Positions 5,414 to 50,288 of a stretch of 64,000 bases of DNA are shown piece after piece. The notes beneath the pieces are model-generated. The model was not told where the DNA came from. It worked only from the letters and a program-made list of their open reading frames with translations, and did no database searches. This stretch comes from an uncultured Bacteroidales bacterium (GTDB lineage Bacteria; Bacteroidota; Bacteroidia; Bacteroidales; Bacteroidaceae): positions 1 through 64,000 of the forward strand of contig CADAGX010000022.1 in NCBI GenBank assembly GCA_902787575.1, written 5' to 3'. The number at the start of each line of letters is the position of its first letter. Position 1 is the first letter of the stretch. The position numbers and the translations under genes are program-made.

Positions 5414-5446
5414 AATGAATAATTACAAATAAAAGTTTTTAGAATT

Positions 5447-5836: not shown

Positions 5837-6438
5837 CACGAAAGGCACTTCAAGCATGGACCGCTGTCTGTGCCACGACTCTCATCTTGGCCATCGACCA
5901 GACCACGAAAGTGCTGGTCAAGACTCACATGTACCTCCATGAGAGCCGACGTGTGACGGATTGGTTCTATCTGGTCTTCACCGAGAACGACGGTATGGCC
6001 TTTGGCATCGAATGGTTCAGCAAGATTTTTCTTACGTCCTTTCGCATCGTGGCAGTCGGCCTGTTGGCTTGGTACGTGACACGGCAAATAAAGAAAGGTG
6101 TTAGCTGGGGTTTCCTCATTTGTCTCGTCTCCATCTTGGCCGGGGCAGCTGGCAATATCTTCGATTGCGTGTTCTATGGAATGATTTTCAACGAGCCGAT
6201 GCCGCCGGCGGTGGCTTCGTTTGTCCCGTGGGGCACAGGCTACGGTCAGATTATGCGCGGTTTTGTGGTGGATATGTTCTACTTCCCGCTGGTGGAATGG
6301 GACTGGCCATCGTGGCTGCCGGCTCTGGGCGGGAGACATTTCATCTTTTTCAGCCCGATCTTCAATGTGGCAGATGCCTTCATATCGTGCGGTGTCATAG
6401 CTTTAGTGCTCTTCTATAACAAACGCTTTCGCGAATGA
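5833..6438 (+). CDS. lspA: Lipoprotein signal peptidase (signal peptidase II)
   Basis: LspA cleaves the signal peptide of diacylglyceryl-modified prolipoproteins in the inner membrane. The 201-residue protein has four hydrophobic segments and both catalytic aspartates: Asp111 in GNIFDCVFYG and Asp181 in NVADAFIS, plus the conserved ENDGMAFG stretch near residue 51. A loop of about 50 residues between the third and fourth membrane segments is longer than in E. coli LspA, which I recall as a feature of Bacteroidetes homologues. It overlaps both neighbours by four bases, so translation is probably coupled. Confidence 0.95.
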   Translation: MTRKALQAWTAVCATTLILAIDQTTKVLVKTHMYLHESRRVTDWFYLVFTENDGMAFGIEWFSKIFLTSFRIVAVGLLAWYVTRQIKKGVSWGFLICLVSILAGAAGNIFDCVFYGMIFNEPMPPAVASFVPWGTGYGQIMRGFVVDMFYFPLVEWDWPSWLPALGGRHFIFFSPIFNVADAFISCGVIALVLFYNKRFRE

Positions 6439-9661: not shown

Positions 9662-9749
9662 GTTGTTCTTCGTAAAATGACACGTGAAAAACAATTTCTC
9701 ACGCTTTTGTATCTAATCACTATTATGTTTAATAACTTCTTTTCACCTG

Positions 9750-11351: not shown

Positions 11352-11407
11352 GTGCTGTAATATCATACTATATAATAATGTTTGCGCGCGTACGCGCACG
11401 AGAAACC

Positions 11408-17919: not shown

Positions 17920-17929
17920 AAACAAAAAT

Positions 17930-18265
17930 ATGTACCAAATAATCTGCAATATGAAAGGCTCGCGTAGCCTCGACATAGATGAAAAGCATCTCTCCACCAT
18001 CGAGGAATTCTCACTCTTCAGCGACTTGCTCGACAGCAACGGGCTGGTGGACGAGAATGTGCTCGAGAAATTGCGGCTCAACGTGCGCGCCCTACTCGAC
18101 GGCACAGGCGGCAACGCAGCTCTGATACGTCTCTGCCAGGATGTATTGTTCCATCCGAACATGAAGGCGTTTGGCCTGCACCAACTCATCCTGCTCTATA
18201 TCGATTGGGAGAAGAAGAAACTCGACGATCTGAAGGACGAAATCGAAACGGAAGCTGAAGTTTGA
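17930..18265 (+). CDS. Conserved Bacteroidales protein before YgiQ
   Basis: The 111-residue protein is hydrophilic and predicted to be mostly helical (SLDIDEKHLSTIEEFSLFSD, then LIRLCQDVLFHPNMKAFGLH). The C-terminus is strongly charged (DWEKKKLDDLKDEIETEAEV). No signal peptide or membrane segment is visible. It lies ten bases after the amidase-like gene and its stop overlaps the YgiQ start by one base (TGATG), so it is part of the same operon. I do not recognise its function; a second possible start is the ATG at 17951. Confidence 0.72.
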   Translation: MYQIICNMKGSRSLDIDEKHLSTIEEFSLFSDLLDSNGLVDENVLEKLRLNVRALLDGTGGNAALIRLCQDVLFHPNMKAFGLHQLILLYIDWEKKKLDDLKDEIETEAEV

Positions 18266-20160
18266 TGTCTGAGCTCAAGCAATCGGATTGGCTCCCTACG
18301 ACGCGTCGCGAAATGGACCTGCGCGGTTGGGACTGCGCCGACGTGATTATTTTCAGCGGCGATGCATATGTCGACCATCCCAGCTTTGGCGCCGCAGTAA
18401 TCGGCCGCCTGTTGGAGAGCGAGGGATACCGCGTATGCATCGTGCCGCAGCCCGATTGGCACGGCGACTACCGCGACTTTCGCAAGTTGGGCCGCCCGCG
18501 TCTGTTTTTCGGTGTGTCGCCCGGTTGCATGGATTCAATGGTCAATAAATACACTGCGGCCCGCAGGCTCAGAAGCGAGGATGCTTATAGTCCCAACGGC
18601 CGCCACGACCTGCGTCCAGAATACCCCACAATCGTATATACACGCATCATAAAGGAATTGTTTCCCGACGCTCCGGTCATTTTGGGCGGCATCGAAGCCA
18701 GCCTCCGCCGTCTGATGCATTACGATTACTGGCAAGACCGCTTCCGACCAAGCGTGCTGGTGGAGAGCGGAGCCGACATGATTACCTATGGCATGGGCGA
18801 GCAGCCTACACTCGAAGTGGCGCGACGACTGCTGGAAGCCGTGGAATCGTCGGACGCCACACTTGGTTACGACGAAAACGGCACGTCGTTTTGCACGTGC
18901 GACACGTTGCATCAGTCGATACGACACGTGGAAATTCCACAAACTGTGTGTGCCTACCCGAAGAACGACATTCCGCACGGCATACGCGAAGACGACATCG
19001 TACTACATTCCTACGCCGAAAGCCTCGCAAACCCGCGGTTGCACGCCGAGAATTTCCGGCACATAGAAGAGGAAAGCAACCGCATTCATGCGCAACGCCT
19101 GCTGCAGGAGACAGATGGACAATGGGTGGTGGTGACGCCGCCATACGAGCCACCCACACAAACCGAACTCGACAGGAGCTACGACCTACCCTACACCCGC
19201 ATGCCTCACCCGAAGTATCGCGGCAAACGCATTCCGGCCTACGAGATGATACGTCACAGCCTGTGCCTGCATCGTGGCTGTTTTGGCGGTTGCGCCTTTT
19301 GCACCATCAGTGCGCATCAGGGGAAATTTATTGTCAGCCGCAGTAAGGAGAGCATTCTGCGTGAGGCAGAGAAAATCACACAGATGCCCGACTTCAAGGG
19401 ATACATCAGCGACCTCGGCGGTCCCAGTGCCAATATGTATATGATGGGCGGCAAGAATCGTAAGGCGTGCGAGGCGTGCCGGCGTCCTTCGTGCATTCAT
19501 CCAAACGTCTGCCCGAATCTGAACGTAGACCACCGCCCGCTACTCGAAATCTACCGTGCTGTGGACGCTCTGCCAGCCGTTAAGCGTAGTTTCATAGGCA
19601 GCGGCGTCCGGTACGACCTGCTGTTGCACGACACGGGCAATGCTGTGCTGAACGAATCGTCGCGTCAATACACCGAAGAACTCATTACGCGACACGTCAG
19701 CGGCCGTCTGAAAGTGGCGCCCGAACACACCAGCGACCACGTGCTAAACGTCATGCGAAAGCCGAGCTTCGCACTTTTCCACCGCTTCAAGTCCATCTTC
19801 GACGACATTTGCCGCCGGCACCGACTGCGTCAACAGATTATACCTTATTTTATAAGCAGTCATCCTGGCTGTACCGAAGCCGATATGGCAGAACTTGCGT
19901 GCGAGACCAAACGACTCGACTTCCACTTGGAACAGGTGCAGGACTTCACACCCACTCCGATGACGCTGGCCACCACCTGCTGGGCCACCGGCTATCATCC
20001 TTACACGGGCGAAAAGATATTTAGCGCCCGCACGCCACAGGAAAAGCAGGCGCAGCGAATGTATTTCTTCTGGTACAAACCCGAAGAACGACGCAAGATA
20101 CTCCAGCGGCTAAAGCAACTGGGCCGCCACGACCTCATTAAAATACTTTTCAATCAATAA
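18265..20160 (+). CDS. YgiQ family radical SAM protein
   Basis: The 631-residue protein has an N-terminal B12-binding-like region (LPTTRREMDLRGWDCADV, GDAYVDHPSFGAAVIGR) and a radical SAM core with the CxxxCxxC cluster in RGCFGGCAFCTISAHQG near residue 340. An extra cysteine set (CEACRRPSCIHPNVC) follows at about residues 402-416. The family is conserved but its reaction is unestablished. The ATG at 18265 overlaps the preceding stop; a TTG three bases upstream is less likely. Twelve bases separate it from the DUF4494 gene. Confidence 0.9.
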   Translation: MSELKQSDWLPTTRREMDLRGWDCADVIIFSGDAYVDHPSFGAAVIGRLLESEGYRVCIVPQPDWHGDYRDFRKLGRPRLFFGVSPGCMDSMVNKYTAARRLRSEDAYSPNGRHDLRPEYPTIVYTRIIKELFPDAPVILGGIEASLRRLMHYDYWQDRFRPSVLVESGADMITYGMGEQPTLEVARRLLEAVESSDATLGYDENGTSFCTCDTLHQSIRHVEIPQTVCAYPKNDIPHGIREDDIVLHSYAESLANPRLHAENFRHIEEESNRIHAQRLLQETDGQWVVVTPPYEPPTQTELDRSYDLPYTRMPHPKYRGKRIPAYEMIRHSLCLHRGCFGGCAFCTISAHQGKFIVSRSKESILREAEKITQMPDFKGYISDLGGPSANMYMMGGKNRKACEACRRPSCIHPNVCPNLNVDHRPLLEIYRAVDALPAVKRSFIGSGVRYDLLLHDTGNAVLNESSRQYTEELITRHVSGRLKVAPEHTSDHVLNVMRKPSFALFHRFKSIFDDICRRHRLRQQIIPYFISSHPGCTEADMAELACETKRLDFHLEQVQDFTPTPMTLATTCWATGYHPYTGEKIFSARTPQEKQAQRMYFFWYKPEERRKILQRLKQLGRHDLIKILFNQ

Positions 20161-37524: not shown

Positions 37525-38154
37525 GTGGAAGAAAAGAAAACAGTGGTTGCTTTCGACTTCGACGGCACGCTGACCCGAGGCGACACGCTGACAGCTTTCA
37601 TTCGCTTCACGCACGGGTGGCGAAGAATGCTGTGGGGATTTCTGCGGCATGCGAACTGGCTGCTGATGATGAGGCTCGGGCTCTACCCTTCTGCAAAAGT
37701 GAAGGAGAAAATCATCTGCCACTTTTACAAAGGGACGGCTTACAGCCAATTTGTGACGTGGGGAAGAGAATTTGCCGACGTGGCAGAATCGATGCTGAAT
37801 TGCGAGGTGCTGGAGAAACTGCGAGAGCATCAGGCAGCAGGACACACGGTCTGTGTGGTGACTGCGAGCATCGATGAATGGGTACGCCCAGTCTGTGAAA
37901 AACTGGGCGTAGTAACAGTGATTGCCACACGTGTCGAAGTCTCGAGCGACGGCAGACTATCCGGCCGCCTGCTGACGCCCAACTGCAACGGCGTGGAGAA
38001 AGTAAGACGCCTGCTGGAGGTGTTTCCGCAGCGGCAAGCATACACTCTCTATGCCTACGGAAACAGCCACGGAGACGACGAGTTGTTGGCGCTGGCCGAC
38101 GTATCACAACGCGTTTATCTCTTGTGGAAAAACTCCTGCGGGCCGGTGATGTAA
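37525..38154 (+). CDS. HAD-IB family phosphatase
   Basis: The 209-residue protein begins at a GTG and contains the HAD motif FDFDGTLT (nucleophile Asp11, acid/base Asp13), the motif II region VCVVTASIDEWV and the C-terminal YGNSHGDDELLALAD (motif IV). This is the phosphoserine-phosphatase-like (IB) subfamily. Beside a UbiA/DPPR synthase-like enzyme it could remove the 5-phosphate from a polyprenyl-phospho-pentose phosphate; in mycobacteria a non-HAD enzyme is proposed for this step. No in-frame ATG is available near the N-terminus. Its 3' end overlaps the convergent C13 gene by 40 bases. Confidence 0.8.
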   Translation: MEEKKTVVAFDFDGTLTRGDTLTAFIRFTHGWRRMLWGFLRHANWLLMMRLGLYPSAKVKEKIICHFYKGTAYSQFVTWGREFADVAESMLNCEVLEKLREHQAAGHTVCVVTASIDEWVRPVCEKLGVVTVIATRVEVSSDGRLSGRLLTPNCNGVEKVRRLLEVFPQRQAYTLYAYGNSHGDDELLALADVSQRVYLLWKNSCGPVM

Positions 38155-40472
38155 AGGTTGCCAAAGTTGGCAGAGTTCACAACGTGAACATGCGAGCCCA
38201 GTGTGCGCTGTGCGCAATAGAGATAGAGGTCGCGGTAAGTGGTCGTGGGAGACGCTGTAAGATGAGCCACAAGGTTGTGGCTGAACCGGTCGCAGCGCCA
38301 CACACCGAGTTCCGAGCTCCAGTTGTCAGCAAACGACTGCTCGTAGCGGCCGGCGCTCGACATGGCAAGTACACCACGTATGCCCACCAACGGCGTAATA
38401 ACAGTCTCCGAGTAGCACGGCTCGGTTAGTACGAGCATCTTGCGGAAGTGGCCTTCGGTCTGCATCGTGCTGATGGTCTGGCGCAGCAGTTCGGCCGTCA
38501 TGCCCTGACCTGCGGCAGCACTGCGCCAAACCAACTCGTCTGCGCCACCACTTGAACGATTCTTGCCATGCCCGCTCCAGAAGAACAGCACGTTCTGTTC
38601 CGCATCCTTCGGCAGCACAACGGAAGTCTTTTCCGATGCGTTACCAAGCATGATATTGCAGATGTCGGCAGGTGCAACGTCGGCATTGTCGTAGTCTACG
38701 ACACATCCTTCCAGTAAATCCGCGCCGTCATCTTCGGCGCGTATGACGCCGCGCTCGGGATTCCTCGAGTCGGAGGCAAGCGCTTTATCAATGACAAGAA
38801 TGATATGGTCGTCGTCAAATCCATTTTTCTTGAGCATCTGGTAAACGTTCAGCACATCGGCCTGATGGCGGTAGTTGTTCCATCCGTTGCTGCCTTGCAC
38901 CAAAACAGCATACTGTGCTGTGAGAGCGGGATAAGTGAAGGTCACATCCTTGTTATCGGCTTCGCTGGCGAAGTCCTCCTCGGGATTCTGCACGAGCCAG
39001 TTCCATGCGGCCAGAGCTGGAGCTATGCGTCGGCTACCGTCGCTGCTGAGATAATTCTGGTGCGTCAGGCGTCCGTTCTTAATCTGCCAGTGGACGTAAG
39101 TGGTATGAATCGACGAAGTGAAAGTCTCGCTGTCGAAACGAATGTCGCCCGACGCTCCCTTGAAGTCCATCAGCTTTCCGCGTTCCATAGCGTTGAGATA
39201 GAGTTCCATGGATGTCGTGTTCCAGGCTGCACCGCTCAGCTGACGTTCCTGTGGCGTCGTTATCTTTATGATGGCATCATTGAAGCGAGTATTAAGTTCG
39301 GCAGCCGATGGATTGTGTTCCACATATGAGGCTGCAAATGCAGCGAGCATCAGTGCATCGTACAACTTGCATTCGGCAAAGGTGGGCTTGTCACCAAACT
39401 TCACCTCGTAGCTCAATTCGAAACCAGTGGTGGGGTCGGCGTAGGGCGAGAACCCCTGATAATAATACAGCACATCCACTTTCTCTGGTCCGAGTGCATC
39501 GAGGTCCTCCTGCCTAAGGTTGCTGAAAGCAAAGTATGTGCGGCCCCAGAATTCCAACATCTGTCTATCCAACTCCCTACTGCTCTCATCCAGCGGTTCG
39601 TCGGGATCCATATCCCACCACTCCATACGTAGCCGAGCTATGTCGAGCAGCTGTTGCAAGGACTCGATGATGCAGAAAGTGCCGATGGAGAAGCTGCCGA
39701 AAACCGGCAGTTGGTTCAGTTCGTCGTAATACGCCTTCAGACGGCTGTGAAGGTCGGCGTCGTCTGTATAAAGTTCGTTGTGAGAGAAAGGTATGCCCAT
39801 CTCTTCGGCTTGGTATGGTCCCCAGTCGTAGAACGTACGGCCGTAGCTGTCGTTGGGCGAGAACATGGCCGCAGGAGTGCTGTTGCGGGGATCTTCTCCT
39901 ATGCTTCGTATATATGCGGCATACATGCTCATCAGCACTTCGCAGAAGGTGATATCGGTCTCGGTGAGTGTCCAAAGGAAGGGTTCCTTGTTGGCCACGC
40001 CAGCAGTACCGACTGCGAAGCGACGAATCACATCTTCGCTGGTGGCCGTCGGTGCGATGACGGGCTTGTGTGTCTTCTGACATGCGGGAGCAAGCTTGGC
40101 CACAGCGTTGTTGCCAAAGGGACCGACTACGGCCAACACGTCCTCGCGAGAGGCCAGCTCCTCGCCCAGCTGCGCAAGGTCCTCAGTCAGCTCGTCGTGC
40201 CACTCCAGTTTCAGGTCGATGCAAAGCGTGTCGTGAAGCTGTGACTGGTGCAGATTGTCGAGAAACCATGCTGCAGTCCGCTCGAAACGTGCCTTTGTAG
40301 CAGCGTCGGCACTCGTAGGTGCCACCAGGGCAATCGTCTTTTCTACCCAACGGCGCGACTGCCGAAATTCGATGGTGTCATTCTCCTCCCCTTTGCAGCC
40401 CGAGAGCAGCAAAAGCGGAAGCATGACAAAGACAGTCAAACGCACTTTTACGAATCGAGAATCAATGTTCAT
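38115..40472 (-). CDS. Lipoprotein: type-1 binding domain fused to C13 protease
   Basis: The 785-residue protein starts with a signal peptide and lipobox ending LLLLSGC followed by acidic residues. Residues of about 40-480 form a type-1 periplasmic-binding (Leu/Ile/Val-receptor-like) domain with DVLAVVGPFGNNAVAKLAP and KPVIAPTATSEDVIRRF. Residues of about 505-780 form a C13 (legumain/GPI8-type) caspase-fold domain: AVLVQGSNGWNNYRHQADV, FFWSGHGK with catalytic His635 and TEPCYSET with Cys686, then LAMSSAGRYEQSF. The family includes asparaginyl endopeptidases and the GPI transamidase. The legumain Glu-Ala-Cys here is Glu-Pro-Cys. It is the last gene of the nine-gene operon and overlaps the BMP gene by 11 bases. 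What it binds or cuts is unknown. Confidence 0.85.
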   Translation of the reverse strand: MNIDSRFVKVRLTVFVMLPLLLLSGCKGEENDTIEFRQSRRWVEKTIALVAPTSADAATKARFERTAAWFLDNLHQSQLHDTLCIDLKLEWHDELTEDLAQLGEELASREDVLAVVGPFGNNAVAKLAPACQKTHKPVIAPTATSEDVIRRFAVGTAGVANKEPFLWTLTETDITFCEVLMSMYAAYIRSIGEDPRNSTPAAMFSPNDSYGRTFYDWGPYQAEEMGIPFSHNELYTDDADLHSRLKAYYDELNQLPVFGSFSIGTFCIIESLQQLLDIARLRMEWWDMDPDEPLDESSRELDRQMLEFWGRTYFAFSNLRQEDLDALGPEKVDVLYYYQGFSPYADPTTGFELSYEVKFGDKPTFAECKLYDALMLAAFAASYVEHNPSAAELNTRFNDAIIKITTPQERQLSGAAWNTTSMELYLNAMERGKLMDFKGASGDIRFDSETFTSSIHTTYVHWQIKNGRLTHQNYLSSDGSRRIAPALAAWNWLVQNPEEDFASEADNKDVTFTYPALTAQYAVLVQGSNGWNNYRHQADVLNVYQMLKKNGFDDDHIILVIDKALASDSRNPERGVIRAEDDGADLLEGCVVDYDNADVAPADICNIMLGNASEKTSVVLPKDAEQNVLFFWSGHGKNRSSGGADELVWRSAAAGQGMTAELLRQTISTMQTEGHFRKMLVLTEPCYSETVITPLVGIRGVLAMSSAGRYEQSFADNWSSELGVWRCDRFSHNLVAHLTASPTTTYRDLYLYCAQRTLGSHVHVVNSANFGNLYITGPQEFFHKR

Positions 40473-41562
40473 ACTCTTCCTCCTTTCGCACAGCTTCTTC
40501 GTGCATTTCCTGTTTCATTTCCAGCGTCAGACGAGGTGCAGTAGTGCCCGTGTAGCCCTCTGGTACCCAAATATAAAGATCGCGAATGGAATTCAGAATT
40601 ACTTCTGTGTATCCTTCTTTAATTCCGAGCAGCTGGTGCTTTGGCATCGCTCCATCGTTAATCCACTGGCGGATGCTCTGAGCCACAGCGCGGTCTATAT
40701 GCTTCACGATGGAATACGGAGAGTAGTAGCTGTCGTGAAAGACGTCAATGCCAATGATATTGCCACCCCAAAACGAAGAACCGATCAATCGCAAGAATGT
40801 TTTCGACGCTCCACCACAAACGGGGATCAGCAAATCAGTGTCTTTCAACCACTGTCGCAGCAGCCGCATGGCAACTGTGTCGGAGACACTGAAGCCTTCG
40901 GCACCAGTCTCGTCGAGATAGGTTGATGACAGGTGACATAGGCTAATCTGATGTTCGGTCAAAAGTTTAAGACCGGCCTCGTAGCCGTCTGTGAAACCCT
41001 GCATCGCATCTGTGACAGCCGGTGTCTGATGGTTAGCACCAATCAGCAAGCCGTGTGCCTCCTCTAATGCAGATAAAATGCGGCCACCTTCGTACATCGC
41101 GCCATAATAAGACAGAAATAGCGTTGAACCCTTCCCCTCAAGCGGCGTTCGAGTCTCGAGGTACAAGAGGTCGGCATTCGGATTTGATTCCAGGCGGTGG
41201 TTGTTCTTGCGGATGAATTCGTCATAGCCGGGCGATGTAACGACAAAAAGTCTGCGCACGGAGTCCTGCGCAGCCTCCATCTGACTGAACATCAGTTCCA
41301 GATACTGCAAGACCTCCTCTGTCGATTGTGGCGACAATTGCATGGTGCGCAATCCCAACTCCTGAGCCACACGTTCCACGCCTTCATAAATGAGGTCGTT
41401 GTACGAGTGGTCGCCCAGTGCGTTGGCGTCGTAAACAACAGTTACCAGCGGTGCTGTGCTCGCCTTCTCCTCGTTGGGGTCGGGTACGAAAATGGTGTTA
41501 CCATCCTTCGTACAGGCCGCTGCCAGCAATGCTGCCGCCAGCCATACGAAATACTTCTGCAT
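40462..41562 (-). CDS. BMP-family (PnrA-like) binding lipoprotein
   Basis: The 366-residue protein has a signal peptide and lipobox (LLAAAC, Cys17) and a type-1 periplasmic-binding fold of the basic membrane protein (BMP) family: VTVVYDANALGDHSYNDLIY, GLLIGANHQTPAVTDAMQGF and GGASKTFLRLIG. BMP proteins bind nucleosides, but also other ligands; the ligand here is not determined. No ABC permease or ATPase lies nearby, unlike standard BMP transporters. It precedes the C13-fusion gene with an 11-base overlap. The polar C-terminal tail is rich in Glu and Lys (MKQEMHEEAVRKEEEYEH). Confidence 0.82.
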   Translation of the reverse strand: MQKYFVWLAAALLAAACTKDGNTIFVPDPNEEKASTAPLVTVVYDANALGDHSYNDLIYEGVERVAQELGLRTMQLSPQSTEEVLQYLELMFSQMEAAQDSVRRLFVVTSPGYDEFIRKNNHRLESNPNADLLYLETRTPLEGKGSTLFLSYYGAMYEGGRILSALEEAHGLLIGANHQTPAVTDAMQGFTDGYEAGLKLLTEHQISLCHLSSTYLDETGAEGFSVSDTVAMRLLRQWLKDTDLLIPVCGGASKTFLRLIGSSFWGGNIIGIDVFHDSYYSPYSIVKHIDRAVAQSIRQWINDGAMPKHQLLGIKEGYTEVILNSIRDLYIWVPEGYTGTTAPRLTLEMKQEMHEEAVRKEEEYEH

Positions 41563-41644
41563 TATAGTACTTATCCCTTAATACCTTCCAAGATGTCCTT
41601 CAAGAATCCACCTCAATGGCCGCTATCAACAATACATCTCCTTC

Positions 41645-42274
41645 TTAATCGCAATAATCATGATACCCAAATAGTTCCATTATCCATTCGCAAAAAGCAG
41701 AGCCAAAAAAGGGAACATTTCCTCCGAAGGTCACTTCGGCTAACTTTCCCTTTCCTTTGGCATCGACTTCGCATCCCACTGCAGTGTTTTTGCTGCACCA
41801 GCCTGGGACATCGGCAGCAGCCACATTTTCAGCCTCGGCATACGGGTCTTCTACATTTATCCAGCCATCGCTCCAAACTCCCACTCCATCTGCGCTGCGG
41901 AACAAATAGCCTGTGGTAGCAATAGCCTTCAACTTATAAGAATCTTTCGTGGTTTTGGGTGAAGCCTTAGGCGTCAGATGAGCCCACACACCGAGGCGAG
42001 CAGGCAGTGTGGTGGTGACCCATTGTTTTCTCCACTCTGTTTTGGTCATGGGCTCCGTGGTTTCCTCGCCTTTCTCGTTGAGGTAGTGGACAGTGACGTC
42101 TGCCACGTTGAGCACGTCCTCCGACACCATCACATGGCACAGCGTCTCTATGGAGTTTTGCGGCTTGTTTTCGTCCTCGTCCTTGTCGTCGCTGCAGGCC
42201 AACAGCAGAGCGGCAGACATGCAATACAAGAAAATGGCGGGCAGAAGGCCCAGGAAGAATTTCTTGCTTTTCAT
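41645..42274 (-). CDS. Lipoprotein, paralogue of the upstream lipoprotein
   Basis: The 209-residue protein has a signal peptide and a lipobox ending LLLAC, followed by a strongly acidic segment (SDDKDEDENK), which in Bacteroidetes is associated with surface export of lipoproteins. The mature part resembles the protein encoded at 42306-42893: VMVSEDVLNVADVTVHYLNE against VKVSKDVLETATVEAHYIDA, WRKQW against WKKQL, WSDGW against WSDAW, and a shared cysteine-containing end. I chose the ATG at 42274 rather than the frame open from 42316. The function is not recognised. Confidence 0.76.
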   Translation of the reverse strand: MKSKKFFLGLLPAIFLYCMSAALLLACSDDKDEDENKPQNSIETLCHVMVSEDVLNVADVTVHYLNEKGEETTEPMTKTEWRKQWVTTTLPARLGVWAHLTPKASPKTTKDSYKLKAIATTGYLFRSADGVGVWSDGWINVEDPYAEAENVAAADVPGWCSKNTAVGCEVDAKGKGKLAEVTFGGNVPFFGSAFCEWIMELFGYHDYCD

Positions 42275-42305
42275 TCTATTTCTTTTGAAGATTAATACTA
42301 AGGAA

Positions 42306-42893
42306 TTACCAGCCAAAAAGTTTCGTCATATCTGTGGCTTTCTTCATCGCATTCTTGTCCAGCTCAGCATTGCCACCGAAATCGCAGGTGGTGGGTTCCG
42401 AAATTCCATCGGTCTGAATCTCGATGGCCGTTGCGAGGGAATACTGGTTGCACCACTCAGCTACATTCTCGCCTTCCACGAGTGAAGTCAGATTTTCTGC
42501 CGTGGTCCATGCATCGGACCACTGCTTGCCGGTGCCATTCTCCACACGATAGGCTACGCACGATGTCAGTTCCATGTTGTACTTAGTACCAGTCTCGGGA
42601 TTCTTGGGAGTAAACTTTATGTAGAGTGCAGCGAGCGAAGGCAAACTGCCCTTGGGCAACTGTTTCTTCCATTCGGGAGAGATGATAAACTCGCTGCAAA
42701 TCTTGCCCGTGGCGTCGATGTAATGAGCTTCCACGGTGGCGGTCTCGAGCACATCTTTGCTCACTTTTACGTAATAGCCTGTCTCGACCGTAGTGGCAGG
42801 CACAATCTTCTCGTCTTCCTTGCAGGATGTCATCATTGTCACAGCTAGGCTGCAAACAACAAGCGCTGCCTGGAAAAAATAGTTCTTTTTCAT
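42306..42893 (-). CDS. Lipoprotein, paralogue of the downstream lipoprotein
   Basis: The 195-residue protein has a signal peptide and lipobox (MMTSC) followed by KEDEK, an acidic stretch like a surface-export signal. The mature domain has repeated WxxxxW-type positions and a conserved pair of cysteines (LTSCVAYRV and AEWCNQYS), shared in part with the next gene. No named domain is recognised. It lies 46 bases after the DUF4421 gene and 31 bases before its paralogue. It is probably an outer-membrane-anchored partner of the receptor complex, which is inference from context. Confidence 0.76.
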   Translation of the reverse strand: MKKNYFFQAALVVCSLAVTMMTSCKEDEKIVPATTVETGYYVKVSKDVLETATVEAHYIDATGKICSEFIISPEWKKQLPKGSLPSLAALYIKFTPKNPETGTKYNMELTSCVAYRVENGTGKQWSDAWTTAENLTSLVEGENVAEWCNQYSLATAIEIQTDGISEPTTCDFGGNAELDKNAMKKATDMTKLFGW

Positions 42894-42939
42894 TTCTTTA
42901 TAGTTACATTTAAAAATTATTCAATTTACGTTTCTTTGC

Positions 42940-44082
42940 TCAGAATCTCACGTTCAGCATCACGCTCACCATCCAGTCGTAGAAGCGGCAGTTGCTCTTG
43001 AACGAACTGATTTCTTCTGTGGAAGCCGTAACACCCTCGTTGTGAATGGTGAAGCGGTTGAAGTCGAACATAGCATTTATCGAGTAGCGACCAACGGTAT
43101 AATTGGCAGCTGCACGTGCAAAGACGTTGAAGTGCATCTTCTGTGCGGTGCTGAACTTGTCTGTTTCGTGGAAAACCGTGCCCGTGACGTCGTACTCGCC
43201 GCTGTAGGAGTTCAGTCGGTTTATCAGCGTCAGCATGGGAGCCACAGTGGCATTGAAGGTAAGGTTGCGCAGTCCCTTGGTTTTGCTATTGACTGGGTCG
43301 CGATGGAAGAGCACCCAGTTGTAGCCGTAACCCGGACCGACGGAGAGTTGGTGGGTGGAATAGCGATAGTCTCCATCGCAGAACGTGATAAACTCTGTAT
43401 CATTCTTCGGCAGCTTCAAATCGCCGTAGGCATACTTGGCCATCAGGAGCACTGAGCCACAGGAGCGCCGCTGCAGATAACTTCCGTCGTATGCTGCGTT
43501 GTAGGCATAGCGATTCTGGTTGAGCGCATAGTATGCATTGATGATTATCGACTTGAAGTGGCTCAACTCACGCGAACCAATCTGACGCTGGAAGCCTGTG
43601 GTATAGTTGTAAAGTGTGGATTGCAGCGGATTGTAGATTGAGTTGTAGCGGAAACTCAGACCATAGCCAGCATCGAGGAAGCTGAAGTACTGATTGTTGT
43701 TAGACTCGGCAGATTTTGTGCCGACTTCGGTTCCCCAGCCAAGACTGATGTCGCCCAGCGAGACATAGGCGCCAAGCACATTGCTGTACTCCGATTGCAT
43801 CTTTACGTCCCACAGATAGTCGTAGCTGCCCGAGGGATGAGCAAGATTCTCGAGGTGTCCATGTGTCTTGTAGAGTGCACCGGTGCGCGAAAGGTCGTCT
43901 TCGAGCGAGACTGTCCACAACGTGGTGGGCTGAAAGATGTATGCGGAGTCGAGGTCTTCGTTGGGACTGGTAAACCATTCCCACAAAGAACGGAAGAATT
44001 TGTTAGGCTTCGCTGCTGCCGGCTCGGTAGTGCTCGAGAAAGCCAGCAGGCCAATAAGTAGATATTTAGAATACGATTGCAT
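42940..44082 (-). CDS. DUF4421 family outer-membrane protein
   Basis: The 380-residue protein has a signal peptide (about residues 1-24) and then a region of alternating polar and aromatic residues expected of a beta-barrel, ending in a final strand VSVMLNVRF with a C-terminal phenylalanine, as in outer-membrane barrels. It fits DUF4421 (GDISLGWGTEVGTKSAES and NYTTGFQRQIGSRELSHFKS regions). No function is known for the family. It overlaps the TonB-dependent receptor gene by 17 bases, so its synthesis is coupled to the receptor. Confidence 0.78.
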   Translation of the reverse strand: MQSYSKYLLIGLLAFSSTTEPAAAKPNKFFRSLWEWFTSPNEDLDSAYIFQPTTLWTVSLEDDLSRTGALYKTHGHLENLAHPSGSYDYLWDVKMQSEYSNVLGAYVSLGDISLGWGTEVGTKSAESNNNQYFSFLDAGYGLSFRYNSIYNPLQSTLYNYTTGFQRQIGSRELSHFKSIIINAYYALNQNRYAYNAAYDGSYLQRRSCGSVLLMAKYAYGDLKLPKNDTEFITFCDGDYRYSTHQLSVGPGYGYNWVLFHRDPVNSKTKGLRNLTFNATVAPMLTLINRLNSYSGEYDVTGTVFHETDKFSTAQKMHFNVFARAAANYTVGRYSINAMFDFNRFTIHNEGVTASTEEISSFKSNCRFYDWMVSVMLNVRF

Positions 44083-46468
44083 AGCTGATGTTCGGAATAG
44101 AATAACAAGATGTGATGGTATTTACGCGGAACGTATGATAGTTATAATAGTCCTGCAGCGGCTCTTCGTAGCCAATGATGTTCATGAAGTCGAGGCCAAG
44201 GATGTGGTCGATGCGCTTGCCATGTAGGCGATATGAGATGTTGAGCGAGAGGTCGTGCACAGCATCCGTACGCTCGGACATGGCGTGGAAATCGTCGTAT
44301 GCCACGTAGGGAGAGCCTGCGGCATACATGGCAGCAGAGCCGGCCTCGTCGAATGGCGACTGGCGCATGCCGCCCATGATGCTGGCAGCCAGGTTGACAC
44401 TGAGGATGCTACGCTTCCAGCTCCACTCCTTACCGCAAGCCACATTGACAGCCCAGCCACGATCGAAGAGTGTGGGACGCCAGATGCCATCGACGGCGCG
44501 ATACTCGTTCTTAAACACAGAAGCATTGAGCAGCCAGTAGAGTCCATCTCGCATGTGCTGTTCTACACCGGCCGATATGCCATAGCCGCGACCTTCTCCT
44601 TCGTTCACCAGACGATCGGTGAGGAAGTAAAGCCGGCGGTTGATGCTCGTGAATGTGCCGGTAGGACTCACGGGCAACGAGGTCTGGTATTCGCCCCAAG
44701 CCTCGGCGCTGAAGTGGAGGTTGTCTTTTATCTGCCACTTATAATTGAGCACCAGCTGATGGCTGCGCATCGGGTCGAGGTCTTGGTTGCCAGGCACAGA
44801 GAAGTAAGTGTCGAGTGTCTCGGTGCGAGTGGTCATGCCATATCCGGCAGACAGCGTGTGGGCCTCGGCCGGCTTCCATTCGGCCGAGAGGCGAGGTTGC
44901 AATGTCCAGTCGTTAGAGAGCGACCATCCGCTCAAGTGCAAGCCAGCGTTTATCGTCCAGCGTCCCAGACGCAGGAAGTTGGAGGCATAGGCATCCACCT
45001 GTTCCAACGAACGATCTGCTTCGGCTACGGGCACCATCGTGCCAGTAAACAAGCTGGGCGATATGCAGAGCGTCTGGTCGTAGATGATATGTCGCTCCGA
45101 CGCTCCGAATTTTAGCAAGTAAACAGGTGAGAAGCGTTTCTGAGCGGCCATCGAAGCCGTGAGCCAAGTGGTATTGAATCGCAGGTTGGTAAAGGGAGTG
45201 GGCTCAGCCCATGTCTTTTCGTGGCGATTCTCGTTGGTGAGAAGTGTGCCGTCGTCGGCAAAGATAACATAGCGGTCCTCGGCACGGAAGTTGCGGAGAG
45301 AGGCCGTCAGATTGGCTTTCAGTCGCCAGCCGTTACCCGGACTGGCATCGATTGTGGCACCTCCGGTCGTTGTATTCAGTCGGCTGTTGAAGTCGTTCTG
45401 GTCGTAGAGCGTGTGCCACTGGTTTTCGTAGCCCGACCATTCCATATATCCGTGGTCCCACGCGCCTAAGCCCCACACAGAAATCGTGGCACGACGCAAG
45501 GGGAAGTTCAGCTTGAAGGCCAAGTCTTGATAGTCGCCTTGGTCGCCATCGAGGATGCCCAATCCGATATCGTTGGCCAGTTTGGTAAGGCCATAACGAT
45601 AGGCAATGAGATACGAGAATCCTTTCTCCTTCGAGATCGGTCCCTCGCTGTTGAGGTCGAGGCCCATGGTGGAGAGTTTGACGCTGTGTTCGTACTTCGA
45701 GAGATTACCATTGCGCAGTTGCAAGTCCATCACACCGCCCAACGTATTGCCAAACTCGGCGGGCGCTGCTGCTGTGTAATAGTCGCTGTTGGCTATCAGG
45801 TTAGTATGGAGAGATGAGATGTCTCCCACTCCATGAGCCATGTTGTCGAAGTGAGCAGGCGCCGGCACCTCTACGCCCTCCAGACGATACATGGTCATCG
45901 AGGGAGCGTTGCCGTGGGTGGAAATGCCCGAATTGCTTTCGGAACCGGTGGTACCCACATATCGACGCACCACGCGACCTATGTCGTCCATCGTGCCACC
46001 GAAACGCTGGGCCTCTTCCACACTAATCATCTGTGCACCGGCCAAAGCGGTGGGGTTCAGCGGACGCGACTTATTCACCACTGGCTTAACGGTGACTTCG
46101 GTCATCTGCGATGTCTTTTCTCGCAGGTTGAAGGAGAGCACTATCTCGTGGCGACCAGCCACAAGCACCTCGACTTGTTGCTCCGTTTCGAAGCCCATGC
46201 AACGAGCCTCTACAGTGTATCGTCCTGTGGGAATGTTTTGCAAAAGAAAACGGCCGTCAATATCGGCAACAGCTGCGGCAGGCGTAGCGGTTCCTCCTTC
46301 GTTGACGATCGAAAGAACAGTTAGGTCGGAACCAAGCACTGCGACTGTGGCTCCTGTTAGGGGCTCGCCAGTCAGAGCATCCTTCACTTCGCCGCGAATC
46401 GATTCGGCATGTAAAGGCATCGCTGCCATCAGAAGCCACAGCAGGGACAAAATAGATAATCTTTTCAT
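44066..46468 (-). CDS. TonB-dependent outer-membrane receptor
   Basis: The 800-residue protein has a signal peptide, an N-terminal carboxypeptidase regulatory-like domain (about residues 22-105, RGEVKDALTGEPLTGATVAV), a plug domain (about 130-250, GTMDDIGRVVRRYVGTTGSE and EFGNTLGGVMDLQLRNG), and a 22-strand-type barrel with an aromatic C-terminus (YAIVF). It takes up a ligand using TonB energy. No SusD partner lies beside it; lipoproteins of other families follow instead. The start at 46468 overlaps the MATE stop by four bases; a longer frame from 46642 overlaps MATE and is rejected. Confidence 0.9.
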   Translation of the reverse strand: MKRLSILSLLWLLMAAMPLHAESIRGEVKDALTGEPLTGATVAVLGSDLTVLSIVNEGGTATPAAAVADIDGRFLLQNIPTGRYTVEARCMGFETEQQVEVLVAGRHEIVLSFNLREKTSQMTEVTVKPVVNKSRPLNPTALAGAQMISVEEAQRFGGTMDDIGRVVRRYVGTTGSESNSGISTHGNAPSMTMYRLEGVEVPAPAHFDNMAHGVGDISSLHTNLIANSDYYTAAAPAEFGNTLGGVMDLQLRNGNLSKYEHSVKLSTMGLDLNSEGPISKEKGFSYLIAYRYGLTKLANDIGLGILDGDQGDYQDLAFKLNFPLRRATISVWGLGAWDHGYMEWSGYENQWHTLYDQNDFNSRLNTTTGGATIDASPGNGWRLKANLTASLRNFRAEDRYVIFADDGTLLTNENRHEKTWAEPTPFTNLRFNTTWLTASMAAQKRFSPVYLLKFGASERHIIYDQTLCISPSLFTGTMVPVAEADRSLEQVDAYASNFLRLGRWTINAGLHLSGWSLSNDWTLQPRLSAEWKPAEAHTLSAGYGMTTRTETLDTYFSVPGNQDLDPMRSHQLVLNYKWQIKDNLHFSAEAWGEYQTSLPVSPTGTFTSINRRLYFLTDRLVNEGEGRGYGISAGVEQHMRDGLYWLLNASVFKNEYRAVDGIWRPTLFDRGWAVNVACGKEWSWKRSILSVNLAASIMGGMRQSPFDEAGSAAMYAAGSPYVAYDDFHAMSERTDAVHDLSLNISYRLHGKRIDHILGLDFMNIIGYEEPLQDYYNYHTFRVNTITSCYSIPNISYAIVF

Positions 46469-47805
46469 ATTTTTAATTTGTGTAAAGTGTGATACATAAA
46501 TAAGAATGTGGTTGCAAATAATACCAAGTCGGTAAGCGGCTGTGCCATAAAGACACCGCGGGCCTGATTGTCGGGCAGCAAAGATGGCAACAGCCATACG
46601 AGCGGCACAAGCAGGAGCAACGTGCGAGACAACTCGAGCCAAAAGGTGACAGCCGGCTTTCCCAGCGCCTGAAGGGTACTCTGGCAGGCGAACTGCAAAG
46701 TGGCGACAAAGAAGAAGGCAAATGAAATTCTCACCATTGGCACAGCCCAGGCTGCCATGTCACCGTTGCCCACCACCAGACGCACCACAGGACCAGTGAC
46801 AAGTTCCATAACTGCCCAAACGGCCAACGACCAAACAAGCGTGGCTCGGAGGAGCAAACGAACGTTCTCTCGCACTCGCTCAGCCTGTCCGGCTCCCAGA
46901 TTATAACTGGTAATGGACTGCGCACCGAATGCCATTCCATAGACCGGAAAATACAGAAAGTCGTGCAGCATGATGACGAGTGCCATTGTACCAATAGCTA
47001 TCTCGCCTCCCAATTGGGCAAGCCTTGCATTGTAGATGCCGATTTGTGCTGTCTCGGACAGCATCATTGCCATGGGTGTAACACCCAGTGCCAAGCAAGG
47101 CAGCAGTAGTTCGGGCGTCAGTCGCAGATTTGCCTTGCGCAGTTTAAGATCGCTTTGTGATATGATGAAGTAAAGTGCCACTATGGTAGCTGCCAACTCA
47201 GCAATGGTGGTGGCCCAAGCAGCACCTGCAATGCCCCATCCGAAGGCGAAAATAAACACTGGGTCGAGCAGCATGTTCAGTCCGATGCCTATGCCCAGTA
47301 TCGAGGCGGCCTGTCGCGAACGTCCCTGTGCCAGCAGGAAAGGAGCCAACCCAGATGCAACAATGCTCAGCGCATAGCCGGGTGTGGAGATGCGCAGATA
47401 GGTGACAGCCAGGGGCGATGTCAGTTCGTCGCCACCGAAGAGGCTTACCAGTTCGTAAGAGAATGATTCGAGGACGAGGCAAACCAAGAGTGCCAAAACG
47501 ATGTCCAAGAGAATGAAATTGCCCAGTGTTCTCTCTGCCTTGTCTCGGTTGCCAGCTCCCAGTAGCCATCCTACTCGCGGCACGATGCCAGTGCTCACCA
47601 GTTCGGAGATAGCAAAGACGATGTATATAATAGGCACACAGATGCCCGAGGCTGTGAATGCCAATTCGCCCAAATCTGGGATATGAGCAATCCAGATACG
47701 GTCTACAAGGCTATTCAGCAGCAGAACGAACTGTTGCAGCACCACCGGCAAAGTCATTGAGACGAACAGCCGCGGTATCCTTTCTGTGCCTAAGGCGTTA
47801 CTCAA
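46465..47805 (-). CDS. MATE family efflux transporter
   Basis: The 446-residue protein has twelve membrane helices in two homologous halves, with MATE signatures such as PVVLQQFVLLLNSLVDRIWI at the first helix and LGVTPMAMMLSETAQIGIYN in the second half. It should export a small molecule by sodium- or proton-coupled antiport. The four-base overlap with the receptor gene and eight-base overlap with the oxidoreductase gene tie it to the operon; I infer that it exports the product of the upstream enzymes. Confidence 0.9.
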   Translation of the reverse strand: MSNALGTERIPRLFVSMTLPVVLQQFVLLLNSLVDRIWIAHIPDLGELAFTASGICVPIIYIVFAISELVSTGIVPRVGWLLGAGNRDKAERTLGNFILLDIVLALLVCLVLESFSYELVSLFGGDELTSPLAVTYLRISTPGYALSIVASGLAPFLLAQGRSRQAASILGIGIGLNMLLDPVFIFAFGWGIAGAAWATTIAELAATIVALYFIISQSDLKLRKANLRLTPELLLPCLALGVTPMAMMLSETAQIGIYNARLAQLGGEIAIGTMALVIMLHDFLYFPVYGMAFGAQSITSYNLGAGQAERVRENVRLLLRATLVWSLAVWAVMELVTGPVVRLVVGNGDMAAWAVPMVRISFAFFFVATLQFACQSTLQALGKPAVTFWLELSRTLLLLVPLVWLLPSLLPDNQARGVFMAQPLTDLVLFATTFLFMYHTLHKLKI

Positions 47806-48904
47806 AGTAGCTAATTACGTTTCTTTTAAATTCTTCGATGTCGAACGGGTGCTCCTCGCGGTGGAAGCTCAGACCTATCTGCTGCAACAGGGCATCAATC
47901 TGAGTAGGCATGATTTGCGAGAGCTCTGTCATGGTGTGCGGATGGTCGGGCCGTACGGACGAGAGCAGCCGGTAAGCAATCCACGCTCCTGTGGCCGTTT
48001 GCCAGCATACTGCATTCACTCCGTATCGAAGCCATGTCGCCTGATTCTGCGTGGTATTCTTAACCCAGTAGAGCTGGTCGGCCGTGTCCCAGAAGAGCAT
48101 TCCCACGTGGTCCTCTCCCTGCAGGTTCTGCGGCACGGGAATGGCAAATATCTGATAGGTGGTCAGCGCCTTACCCTTTCGCAGACAATACTTCTGCAAG
48201 GCTGTGGGAGCCTGGAACAGGTAGGCAGTGCCCAGCAAATCGGGATTCGACATTATCATCGAGCCCAGTTCTTCGTGGTGGATGGGCAAGTAGTGGCGTG
48301 TGAAGCCATGATAGGTCAGTTTTATCGTGTCGCCATTGGCTGCCAGTTGCTTGTCCACTACGCGTGTACCCTGTGGTGTCACCACCACCTTCTCGGCGAA
48401 GACAGCTTCCTCGGCATACATGTAGGGCGACCACGTGCCGAACACCTGATGCTCGCGGCTGCGGGCATTGTCGTGCTCGAGTTCGAAGGCGTAGTGCGGT
48501 CCCTGTGGTTTATATTTCTGATATACGTGTTCGAGTATGCCGGGGTTAATGCCAAAGCCAAACATCACTCTGGAGCGGGTCTTCCAGCCGCACATCTCGC
48601 GCATCAGCTCCGTATAGTTGCTTGGTGTGGAGTCTATGTTTCCGATGCCGTCTTCGATGCCAACGTCTATGTAATCCAGTCCAAACCGGATGCAAAGTTT
48701 CGACAGCTCGATGCTATTGGCCAGGCTTGTGTTCACCACTACATCGAACTCGTCGGCATGCATGGGTAAATATTCCATCACGTCATTGCCGTCGGCTAAG
48801 TCGCAGGGTGTCAGCGTGTAGCTACCCTGCGGATCCTGCTCCAGAAGAATCTTCTCGAAGGCATGTGCAATGTTACCGTAACCGGCCAATAGTATTCGTT
48901 TCAT
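47798..48904 (-). CDS. Homospermidine synthase/saccharopine dehydrogenase-like oxidoreductase
   Basis: The 368-residue protein has an N-terminal Rossmann motif (ILLAGYGNIAHAFEKIL). VVVNTSLANSIELSKLCIR, GLDYIDVGIED and GINPGILEHVYQKY match the homospermidine synthase and saccharopine dehydrogenase superfamily in order and spacing. Members join or rearrange amino groups through NAD(P)-linked imine chemistry, making polyamines or opine-like compounds. The substrate is unknown. It overlaps the condensation-domain gene by 32 bases and the MATE gene by eight. Confidence 0.75.
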   Translation of the reverse strand: MKRILLAGYGNIAHAFEKILLEQDPQGSYTLTPCDLADGNDVMEYLPMHADEFDVVVNTSLANSIELSKLCIRFGLDYIDVGIEDGIGNIDSTPSNYTELMREMCGWKTRSRVMFGFGINPGILEHVYQKYKPQGPHYAFELEHDNARSREHQVFGTWSPYMYAEEAVFAEKVVVTPQGTRVVDKQLAANGDTIKLTYHGFTRHYLPIHHEELGSMIMSNPDLLGTAYLFQAPTALQKYCLRKGKALTTYQIFAIPVPQNLQGEDHVGMLFWDTADQLYWVKNTTQNQATWLRYGVNAVCWQTATGAWIAYRLLSSVRPDHPHTMTELSQIMPTQIDALLQQIGLSFHREEHPFDIEEFKRNVISYFE

Positions 48905-50147
48905 TCTCAGTTTTTGCTATTTTCTGTGCATACTCACCCGTCAGTCGAGCCAACTCGGTCAACTGCTGCTCCGTATAGAGAGCGCTGCTGCCATCCACAG
49001 CTATTTCGTATCCGTCCTCACGCAGGATGATGATGGTCATAGCGTGCTCCAACGTCTTGTCGGGCTCTATGTGATAGCTCTCAAAGGACGTGCCATCCAC
49101 CAAGAGGTATTCGTAGATGAAGGGGCCCTGCACGCTCAGCTCTGTGCCATTGTCGTCCAGACTGACGTCGAGGTCGCGCAGCAGATGCCGCACCGGATAG
49201 ATGCGGTGGCGCATCGAACAGAAGAGGGCCGATTTGGTCTGTTGTATCAGTTGTGCAACACTCTGCTCGGGACTGACATCTATCGCCACGGGCAAACTTG
49301 TCAGGAAGTTGCCATACACGCGGTCAGTGAGCCGTCGGTCTGTGCGTCCGTGATGCGTGGTAAAGAACACCACATTCTGCTGCCCGCTCATACGTCCAAG
49401 TGCCAGCGCATAGGCTGCATTGAAGATGATGGAGAAGTTGACGCCCAACCGCTTGCATCCTTCGTCTATTGGGCCGCAGTCGATATGTGGCCGCACACAG
49501 ATGCAGTGACCGAAGGGATCGTCCGTCTGGTGGCAGAAGTCGGCAAACACCAAATCGTCTCCACCGAACTTCTGCATGTACACTTCCTTCGAATGCTGGT
49601 AGGCTTCGCTTGAGTAGGAGGCCACTTCGGCTTCGTTGAACTCGGCTGCAAGGTCACCCTGGTCGAACACGGGACGGCCGTGTAATGCATCCTCTATGTT
49701 GTTGAAAGCAGCCTTCACCGACAGGCCGTCGAAGAACATATGATGGAGCTGTACGCCCACAATCGTCTTGGTGGGAGTCGCCACCACATGCAGGCGTCCA
49801 CAGGGCTCGTTGAAGAGGTCGAGGGGACGTATAAGTGCGTCTTTGCCACGCTCCCACTCCTCGTCGCTCATCTCTTGGCAGTGCACTGTGGCCGGCATTG
49901 CTGCGTCTTCGCAGACCTGCGGCACACCCTCGGCGTCGAGAATAAGGTGGATGTGAAAGTAGCGCTGAGCATCGAGCACTGCCTGGCATGCACTGAGCAT
50001 TCTGTCGCTACTGCACTTGCTGCGAGGTACGTCCACACATACAGTCAGGTTGTACTGAGTCATCGTCGGGTCTTCGCTCCACTCCTCGTACATTTCCCAC
50101 TGCATCGCATTCATCGGGTAAATGCGGCTGCGCAAATTATTCGTCAT
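48873..50147 (-). CDS. Stand-alone NRPS condensation-type domain protein
   Basis: The 424-residue protein (from the ATG at 50147) matches NRPS condensation domains: SRIYPMNAMQWEMYEEW (C1-like), VQLHHMFFDGLSVK with the catalytic HHxxxDG (His136), NFLTSLPVAIDVSPEQS (C5-like) and RHRIYPVRHLLRDL (C6-like). It should form an amide or ester bond between a carrier- or CoA-bound acyl group and an amine or alcohol. No adenylation or carrier protein is fused or adjacent. The start at 50147 or 50165 fits a promoter at 50177-50184; the longer frame to 50189 begins upstream of it. Confidence 0.82.
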   Translation of the reverse strand: MTNNLRSRIYPMNAMQWEMYEEWSEDPTMTQYNLTVCVDVPRSKCSSDRMLSACQAVLDAQRYFHIHLILDAEGVPQVCEDAAMPATVHCQEMSDEEWERGKDALIRPLDLFNEPCGRLHVVATPTKTIVGVQLHHMFFDGLSVKAAFNNIEDALHGRPVFDQGDLAAEFNEAEVASYSSEAYQHSKEVYMQKFGGDDLVFADFCHQTDDPFGHCICVRPHIDCGPIDEGCKRLGVNFSIIFNAAYALALGRMSGQQNVVFFTTHHGRTDRRLTDRVYGNFLTSLPVAIDVSPEQSVAQLIQQTKSALFCSMRHRIYPVRHLLRDLDVSLDDNGTELSVQGPFIYEYLLVDGTSFESYHIEPDKTLEHAMTIIILREDGYEIAVDGSSALYTEQQLTELARLTGEYAQKIAKTENETNTIGRLR

Positions 50148-50176
50148 TAAATCTTCGCTCTGCATGTTTTCACGTG

Positions 50177-50184
50177 CAAAGATA
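50177..50184 (-). promoter_or_regulatory. -7 box of the condensation-to-C13 operon
   Basis: The minus strand reads TATCTTTG, 30 bases before the ATG at 50147. No clear -33 TTG at 20-base spacing is seen. This separates the operon from fthC upstream. Confidence 0.6.
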
Positions 50185-50288
50185 CGCATTATTTTTCAAA
50201 TAATGTGTTAATCCGACAAATTTATAGCGCTGTCGGAGTTATTAGTTTGAAAAAGAGCGAAAAAAGTGAGGGCTGGACAGAACATGAA

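Follow-up and report, generated by a model that had tools for sequence, protein, structure and literature searches.

A horizontally transferred nine-gene block pairing a stand-alone condensation protein and a reductase with an exporter, a receptor and lipoproteins in Bacteroidales

Organization and gene content of the block

We analyzed a 64,000-nucleotide stretch of DNA (the window), positions 1 to 64,000 of contig CADAGX010000022.1 from an uncultured Bacteroidales bacterium (GCA_902787575.1; genome G000 in our set). Nine genes occupy positions 38115-50147, all on the minus strand. From the head of the block, they run condensation, reductase, MATE, receptor, DUF4421, LP1, LP2, BMP-like, and C13 fusion. 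The features are as follows.

38122..50204, minus strand: horizontally transferred block of ∼12.1 kb, 94.6% identical in DNA to a second species
50188..50204, minus strand: inverted repeat ATTATTTGAAAAATAAT, a 17-base dyad at the head (5′ end) of the shared block, directly before the promoter box
50177..50184, minus strand: promoter box TATCTTTG, a putative Bacteroidales-type −7 box with the pattern TAnnTTTG
48873..50147, minus strand: condensation protein, stand-alone NRPS-type (putative amide synthase), 424 aa, motif HHMFFDG
47798..48904, minus strand: reductase, putative distant relative of carboxyspermidine dehydrogenase, 368 aa
46465..47805, minus strand: MATE family exporter, 446 aa
44066..46468, minus strand: TonB-dependent receptor with a carboxypeptidase-regulatory-like N-terminal domain, 800 aa (Pfam)
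42940..44082, minus strand: DUF4421 protein, 380 aa (Pfam 8e-20)
42306..42893, minus strand: small lipoprotein LP1, 195 aa, Cys followed by KEDE
41645..42274, minus strand: small lipoprotein LP2, 209 aa, Cys followed by SDDKDEDE
40462..41562, minus strand: BMP-like binding lipoprotein, 366 aa, weak Pfam Bmp match
38115..40472, minus strand: lipoprotein in which a type-I periplasmic-binding-like domain is joined to a C13 protease (legumain/GPI-transamidase-like), 785 aa

The close packing reported in a preliminary description of this DNA was confirmed. The first five genes overlap by 32, 8, 4, and 17 bases, gaps of 46, 31, and 82 bases follow, and the last two genes overlap by 11 bases. These values hold for in-frame ATG starts of the condensation gene at 50147, of the receptor gene at 46468, and of the second lipoprotein gene at 42274. 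A longer reading frame from 50189 would overlap the promoter box, and the start at 50147 was therefore preferred. The TATCTTTG box begins 37 bases before this start and matches TAnnTTTG, which we take to be the Bacteroidales −7 promoter consensus. The same pattern stands upstream of six of the seven cluster heads inspected (the window and loci L041, L042, L049, L044, and L045; not L046). It is a short pattern, with 3 matches in 12,075 bases of the minus strand including the TATCTTTG box, and one more match lies 40 bases farther upstream of that box. All three internal gaps lack it, and none of the eight minus-strand terminator-like stems falls within them; on both strands, 15 such stems were found vs. 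11.3 expected. The head promoter box, the overlaps, and gaps free of promoter box and terminator suggest that the block is probably a single transcription unit. The ATTATTTGAAAAATAAT dyad, which is unique in the window at up to two mismatches (0.02 expected) and has a similar counterpart at the equivalent place in L041, is a possible operator. AraC-type helix-turn-helix genes, possible regulators, lie upstream of two other clusters (L042 572-1267 and L049 3410-4084). At the opposite end, a HAD-type hydrolase gene (37525-38154, plus strand) overlaps the C13 gene tail to tail by 40 bases; the shared block ends within this overlap, and its arrival may thus have reshaped the end of the HAD gene.

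Pfam searches upheld the family names first given to the nine proteins, with qualifications for the BMP protein, the binding domain, the reductase, and both small lipoproteins. The condensation protein matches Pfam Condensation at 7e-28 and carries the HHxxxDG motif typical of NRPS clusters. All 11 aligned rows (window included) keep the second His, which is catalytic, together with the Asp and the Gly, and the first motif position is H in six, F in four, and C in one. Its profile matched condensation (C) domains in the PDB at 4e-20. A structural model of medium quality (mean pLDDT 63), which served solely as fold confirmation, returned C domains as Foldseek matches, consistent with this assignment.

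The reductase had been labeled homospermidine-synthase-like, and we correct this label: both its profile matches in the PDB and its aligned catalytic residues point to a closer resemblance to carboxyspermidine dehydrogenase. No Pfam family scored above cut-off, with only a weak saccharopine-dehydrogenase match (0.016) below it. The best PDB matches of the reductase profile, which are not significant alone, were 4rl6 (E 0.33) and 8deb (E 0.52), followed by homoserine dehydrogenase (0.68); the five PDB matches at E≤10 include no solved homospermidine synthase. The accessible text of PMC10413350 identifies 8deb as the Bacteroides fragilis carboxyspermidine dehydrogenase, argues that 4rl6 is one too, and reports the His-Glu-Glu triad to be missing from the saccharopine dehydrogenase and lysine dehydrogenase compared there. 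In a weak alignment, with residue numbers counted by eye, Glu188, His228, Glu229, and Glu230 of 8deb align with E166, H210, E211, and E212 of the reductase, all four identical in 13 of 13 rows, and the 8deb relay residue Ser144 falls on E125, beside a gap. Since the E-values are weak and many columns of the family are invariant, the case for carboxyspermidine dehydrogenase rests on the identity and position of these residues. The protein is better read as a putative distant relative of that enzyme. A structural route was dropped, the AlphaFold model being poor (mean pLDDT 52) and its Foldseek matches meaningless.

The exporter matches Pfam MatE at 7e-41 and TIGR00797 at 1e-51, above cut-off, and the receptor matches TonB_dep_Rec_b-barrel at 5e-15, with CarbopepD_reg_2. 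LP1 and LP2 belong to one family (27% identity); LP1 has no Pfam family and LP2 has a single weak MucBP match (0.02, below cut-off). The BMP-like lipoprotein matches Pfam Bmp below cut-off (9e-4), and its profile matches the membrane lipoprotein 4pev (E 0.002 across 44 positions). The C13 fusion matches Peptidase_C13 strongly (8e-43), and the part before this domain matches Peripla_BP_6 weakly and below cut-off (1.6e-6). Its profile finds legumain at 2e-36 and the binding protein 4gnr at 0.001, and H635 and C686, the catalytic His and Cys of a legumain-type peptidase C13 domain, are present in 15 of 15 rows. The residues after the lipobox Cys of the four lipoproteins are KEDE, SDDKDEDE, TKDG, and KGEEND. 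These acidic residues resemble what we take to be the Bacteroidales surface-export signal, and the binding and protease lipoproteins would thus sit outside the cell; all four acidic-tailed lipoproteins are probably surface-exposed. Family searches found no ABC permease among the nine proteins, in keeping with the absence of ABC genes noted earlier. Pfam gave no SusD match among the nine, and no SusD-type lipoprotein thus stands beside the receptor.

Transfer of the block and its distribution

A second species carries the complete nine-gene block, at the RUG13359 locus (L041, the same contig as G010:C8). The window and RUG13359 align in one piece of 12,098 columns at 94.6% DNA identity, with all nine genes in the same order, and the alignment breaks off at both block ends (38122 and 50204). 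In RUG13359, the block sits downstream of rpoB and rpoC, and its flanks differ from the window's neighbors. Identity at fourfold-degenerate sites ranges from 70.7 to 96.8% over the nine genes, the lowest being the condensation gene (70.7%) and the next LP1 (84.5%). Outside the block, it is 34.5% for MetH and 44.8% for SmpB, the two housekeeping genes compared, and the acpP-fabF region shows 77-79% DNA identity where alignable. Fourfold-site identity in the block thus lies far above that of the two housekeeping genes, which argues for recent transfer as a unit. Horizontal transfer carried the nine genes as a single unit. The earlier view of the nine genes as a unit is therefore borne out by whole-block transfer between species whose two housekeeping genes are distant and by internal gaps free of promoter and terminator. 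Between the ∼100-base stretches at the two block ends, no direct repeats of at least 7 bases were found in the window or in L041. The reductase has neither a plasmid nor a viral match, and the three of the nine proteins that were compared with PHROGs gave no match.

A scan of genomes by contig found ten reductase loci, all in metagenome-assembled genomes (MAGs) of Bacteroidales. Their titles name Prevotella, Xylanibacter, Prevotellaceae, and Bacteroidaceae from yak rumen, goat and roe deer omasum, and red deer; the RUG genome names presumably denote rumen. The reductase is rare, occurring in 3 of 151 family genomes and 1 of 393 in the order (the window's own), and in the phylum its profile matched 2 of 395 genomes, the window's own and one with a marginal 47-residue match. 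The window and the ten loci represent 11 genomes with the reductase, with L042 and L038 assigned to a single genome, since their contig ends overlap and the NRPS and PP-binding searches returned identical matches for G675 and G604. The pairing of amide-forming and imine-reducing enzymes originally noted holds in 10 of these 11 genomes, with the condensation gene beside the reductase or, in L047, two genes away. The eleventh, a red deer MAG (L050), lacks the condensation gene, and its reductase gene (9959-11379) is shortened, adjoins a GNAT gene, and is likely a decayed remnant. The same type of MATE gene accompanies the pair in seven clusters (window, L036/L041, L038, L044, L045, L046, and L049). 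L047 has a different MATE gene, L043 is cut by the contig end, and L048 and L050 showed none. Two genomes, those of the window and RUG13359, have all nine genes in this order. G604 carries a variant with the reductase first, LP2 missing, and a GH3 gene in its place; its C13 gene is split over two frames and a GNAT domain is fused to its condensation protein. On L038, the GNAT-condensation fusion spans 16770-18611, and the GH3 lipoprotein gene (9698-10891) lies between BMP and LP1.

The midpoint-rooted reductase tree splits into two halves with full support, and these differ in architecture. All four clusters of the first half (window, L041, L042/L038, and L049) have C13 and BMP genes and a DUF4421 gene (the L049 copy at 23% identity, Pfam 1e-33), and three have the receptor. 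In the second half (L043-L048), RND genes lie upstream of the condensation gene in all six clusters, in pieces in L043, L047, and L048, and four of the six have a MATE gene. Tandem reductases occur in five of the six, three complete, one cut by the contig end, and one shortened. None of the six has the receptor set within the fetched stretch (L043 ends inside its second reductase) or a C13 gene nearby, and in the genomes concerned a C13-fusion relative was found elsewhere in four of six (one a 68-codon fragment) and not in G672 or G674. GNAT genes are present in L044, L046, L047, and L050, with a shortened one in L048; the block does not contain this gene, for which G000 has only a 29% match and G010 a 66% match outside the block. 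The expectation that the whole system would be conserved as a unit thus stood for the synthesis pair and failed for the receptor/lipoprotein half, which is unlinked in most relatives: six of the ten two-enzyme clusters have an RND pump and, in the fetched stretch, no receptor set.

The surface genes have a distribution of their own. The C13 fusion finds matches, several of them partial, in 33 of 139 genus genomes, 30 of which have no stand-alone condensation gene of the block's family; the other three (G000, G010, and G604) also have a full-length stand-alone condensation orthologue. G585 and G640 have a condensation relative, full length in G585 and truncated by the end of its contig in G640, and no C13 match. 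Of 20 C13 contexts chosen for inspection, including three second copies from G010 and G604, 16 have a BMP-like gene next to C13 and 4 have LP1/LP2-like genes (two short N-terminal matches excluded). Other neighbors were BspA-type leucine-rich-repeat proteins (two confirmed by Pfam) and further lipoproteins, and no synthesis genes were seen in any of the 20. The surface half is separable from the synthesis half, and the C13/BMP pair recurs in the genus on its own. The receptor behaves differently: close orthologues (89-99%) occur only in G010 and G604 among the 139 genus genomes, the next best match is at 36%, and no partner was recognized beside the ∼35% paralogues. As a separate observation, L121 (1-18000) and L120 hold arrays in which two or more C13-fusion genes stand with BMP-like genes and additional lipoprotein genes, a recurring surface module that in L121 includes a lipoprotein with MACPF and BACON domains.

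Proposed function and alternatives

We searched the three block genomes for an NRPS partner of the condensation protein. No NRPS adenylation domain or peptidyl carrier partner was found in G000, G010, or G604, which are 87, 100, and 83% complete, respectively, so that a missed NRPS gene is possible in G000 and G604 and less so in G010. The NRPS query gave one match per genome, in a frame of 563, 588, or 598 codons, respectively; the one in G000 is acyl-CoA-synthetase-like, with no model shown above its cut-off. There was also one PP-binding match in each, which NCBIfam names as acyl carrier protein (AcpP) in G000 and G010 and which adjoins FabF in G000. Further PP-binding matches occur in G668, G669, G670, and G673, and NRPS modules occur in G671, G672, G674, and G585. 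In L047, an adenylation-carrier-condensation protein (4143-7238) lies inside the cluster, between the condensation gene and the different MATE gene; together with the NRPS modules of the four other genomes, it indicates that carrier-dependent versions exist. Frames of ∼2,400 codons that encode NRPSs are found in many of the 139 genus genomes.

Our preferred reading, which we hold tentatively and at slightly under even chances, is that the block is an NRPS-independent make-export-capture operon. The reductase would join an aldehyde to an amine by NADPH-dependent imine reduction in the style of carboxyspermidine dehydrogenase, as its conserved catalytic residues suggest, and the stand-alone condensation protein would form an amide on the resulting amine. 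With no other carrier or NRPS adenylation domain in the three block genomes, the acyl donor would be AcpP or a CoA thioester. The MATE protein, judged by its family, would export the product, and the TonB receptor, the DUF4421 protein, and the four lipoproteins may act on the product or its complex by binding, processing, or re-importing it. In this view, the capture half has been added to a core for making and exporting the product, and in other genomes that core is accompanied by an RND pump. Retrieval of the product and a metallophore role are putative, and the lack of an inner-membrane importer within the nine-gene block counts against this reading.

If this reading is correct, ruminant-gut Bacteroidales own a compact, mobile means to make and trade a secreted small molecule, and such operons could escape cluster-finding programs that look for adenylation or carrier domains. 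A function would then also be indicated for the lipoproteins with a binding domain and a C13 protease, which are found repeatedly in the genus. The transfer unit offers a natural gene set for expression, and the two architectures (receptor set vs. RND pump) allow the question of product retrieval to be asked directly.

A more specific version, in which the product is a metallophore made without NRPS or nicotianamine synthase, we consider quite unlikely. Here, the carboxyspermidine-dehydrogenase-type enzyme would make aminobutyrate-nitrogen links from aspartate semialdehyde, the same aminobutyrate fragment that nicotianamine synthase installs from S-adenosylmethionine. The operon has no decarboxylase, so that a potentially metal-binding carboxylate would be retained. 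The condensation protein would cap the amine, the MATE protein would export the chelator, and the receptor with the surface lipoproteins would retrieve the metal complex; the tandem reductases of the sister clusters would add two links.

The separability of its halves speaks against a make-export-capture operon. Two independent modules may simply travel together, one for synthesis and export and the other for handling surface proteins or peptides unrelated to the product. The 33 genus genomes with C13-fusion matches, the 20 contexts without synthesis genes (16 with a BMP-like neighbor), and the six clusters that have the synthesis module without the surface module nearby all fit this explanation. 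Nevertheless, C13 and BMP accompany the synthesis module in four of four clusters of one reductase clade, and their position in L049 is immediately upstream of the condensation gene. The nine genes moreover moved as a unit, and no genus genome has a close orthologue of the receptor without the block or its G604 variant. We regard two independent modules as somewhat unlikely.

The product could be an acyl amide of a polyamine-like amine, a lipid signal or surfactant like the gut fatty acid amides, that is exported and not retrieved. Stand-alone condensation proteins such as OaaC are known in gut bacteria to couple acyl-ACP to free amines (PMC13142362, in its accessible part), and AcpP is the sole carrier found. 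However, the block brings neither a dedicated adenylation gene nor a dedicated ACP gene, the DG ending of its motif departs from the DS or DA commonest in the Oaa clade as far as that text describes it, and the receptor set is left unexplained. We consider an acyl amide of this kind unlikely. The product could instead be an exported antimicrobial or competition factor, with the receptor and lipoproteins conferring immunity or kin recognition. Patchy distribution, recent transfer, RND genes in all six sister clusters with MATE in four, and the MACPF-domain protein in one C13/BMP array (L121) are compatible with such a role. Yet family searches found no toxin- or immunity-like family above cut-off among the nine proteins, and the seven compared with the PADLOC defense library gave no match; we consider an antimicrobial function very unlikely.

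Comparison with known systems

A literature search with most subscription journals outside its scope found no published description of the nine-gene set. Within the same scope, no paper brought together homospermidine synthase and a condensation domain, or peptidase C13, Bacteroidetes, and lipoprotein, and likewise none was found for DUF4421. A survey of rumen biosynthetic clusters reports many NRPS clusters in Bacteroidaceae, and its accessible text has no mention of condensation or homospermidine (PMC8241843). Judged from the available portions of the sources, the published systems that come closest are the gut fatty acid amide synthases, VibH-type amide synthases, and opine zincophore loci; each of them fails at least one tested feature, and none has the gene set of the block.

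The OaaA/OaaACP/OaaC system of gut Clostridia likewise has a free-standing condensation protein, which acts on a free amine (PMC13142362, accessible part). In contrast, the block has no dedicated adenylation protein or ACP among its nine genes, with only AcpP found, and it pairs its condensation protein with a reductase, an exporter, and a receptor set. The motifs also differ, the HHMFFDG of the block ending in DG and those of the Oaa clade being mostly of the (D/H)HxxxDS type, with DS or DA; since Gly ends the motif in 17% of the set in that source, this difference is weak. VibH and SchH of catechol siderophore pathways share with the block a stand-alone condensation protein and polyamine-type chemistry (PMC7962358, accessible part), whereas the block has no dihydroxybenzoate or aryl-carrier genes among its nine. 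The VibH structure, given there as entry 1l5a, was not among the 40 PDB sequences matched by the condensation profile at E≤0.001.

Carboxyspermidine dehydrogenase (8deb), an enzyme that couples putrescine with aspartate semialdehyde, resembles the reductase in its His-Glu-Glu triad and Glu188, whose equivalents are present in 13 of 13 reductase rows. It differs in that overall similarity is not significant, no decarboxylase family occurs among the nine proteins, and a condensation gene is clustered with the reductase. Zincophore loci (cntL/cntM, pseudopaline) also combine a small synthesis set with an exporter, in some cases with a TonB-dependent receptor, according to the accessible part of PMC7438024. 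Unlike these, the block has no nicotianamine synthase or opine dehydrogenase match among its nine proteins, and its exporter is a MATE protein where zincophore loci have EamA or MFS proteins. Finally, the C13 domain shares with legumain and GPI transamidase the catalytic His and Cys (profile E 2e-36), whereas in the block it is fused to a binding-protein-like domain and, judged by its lipobox, lipid-anchored.
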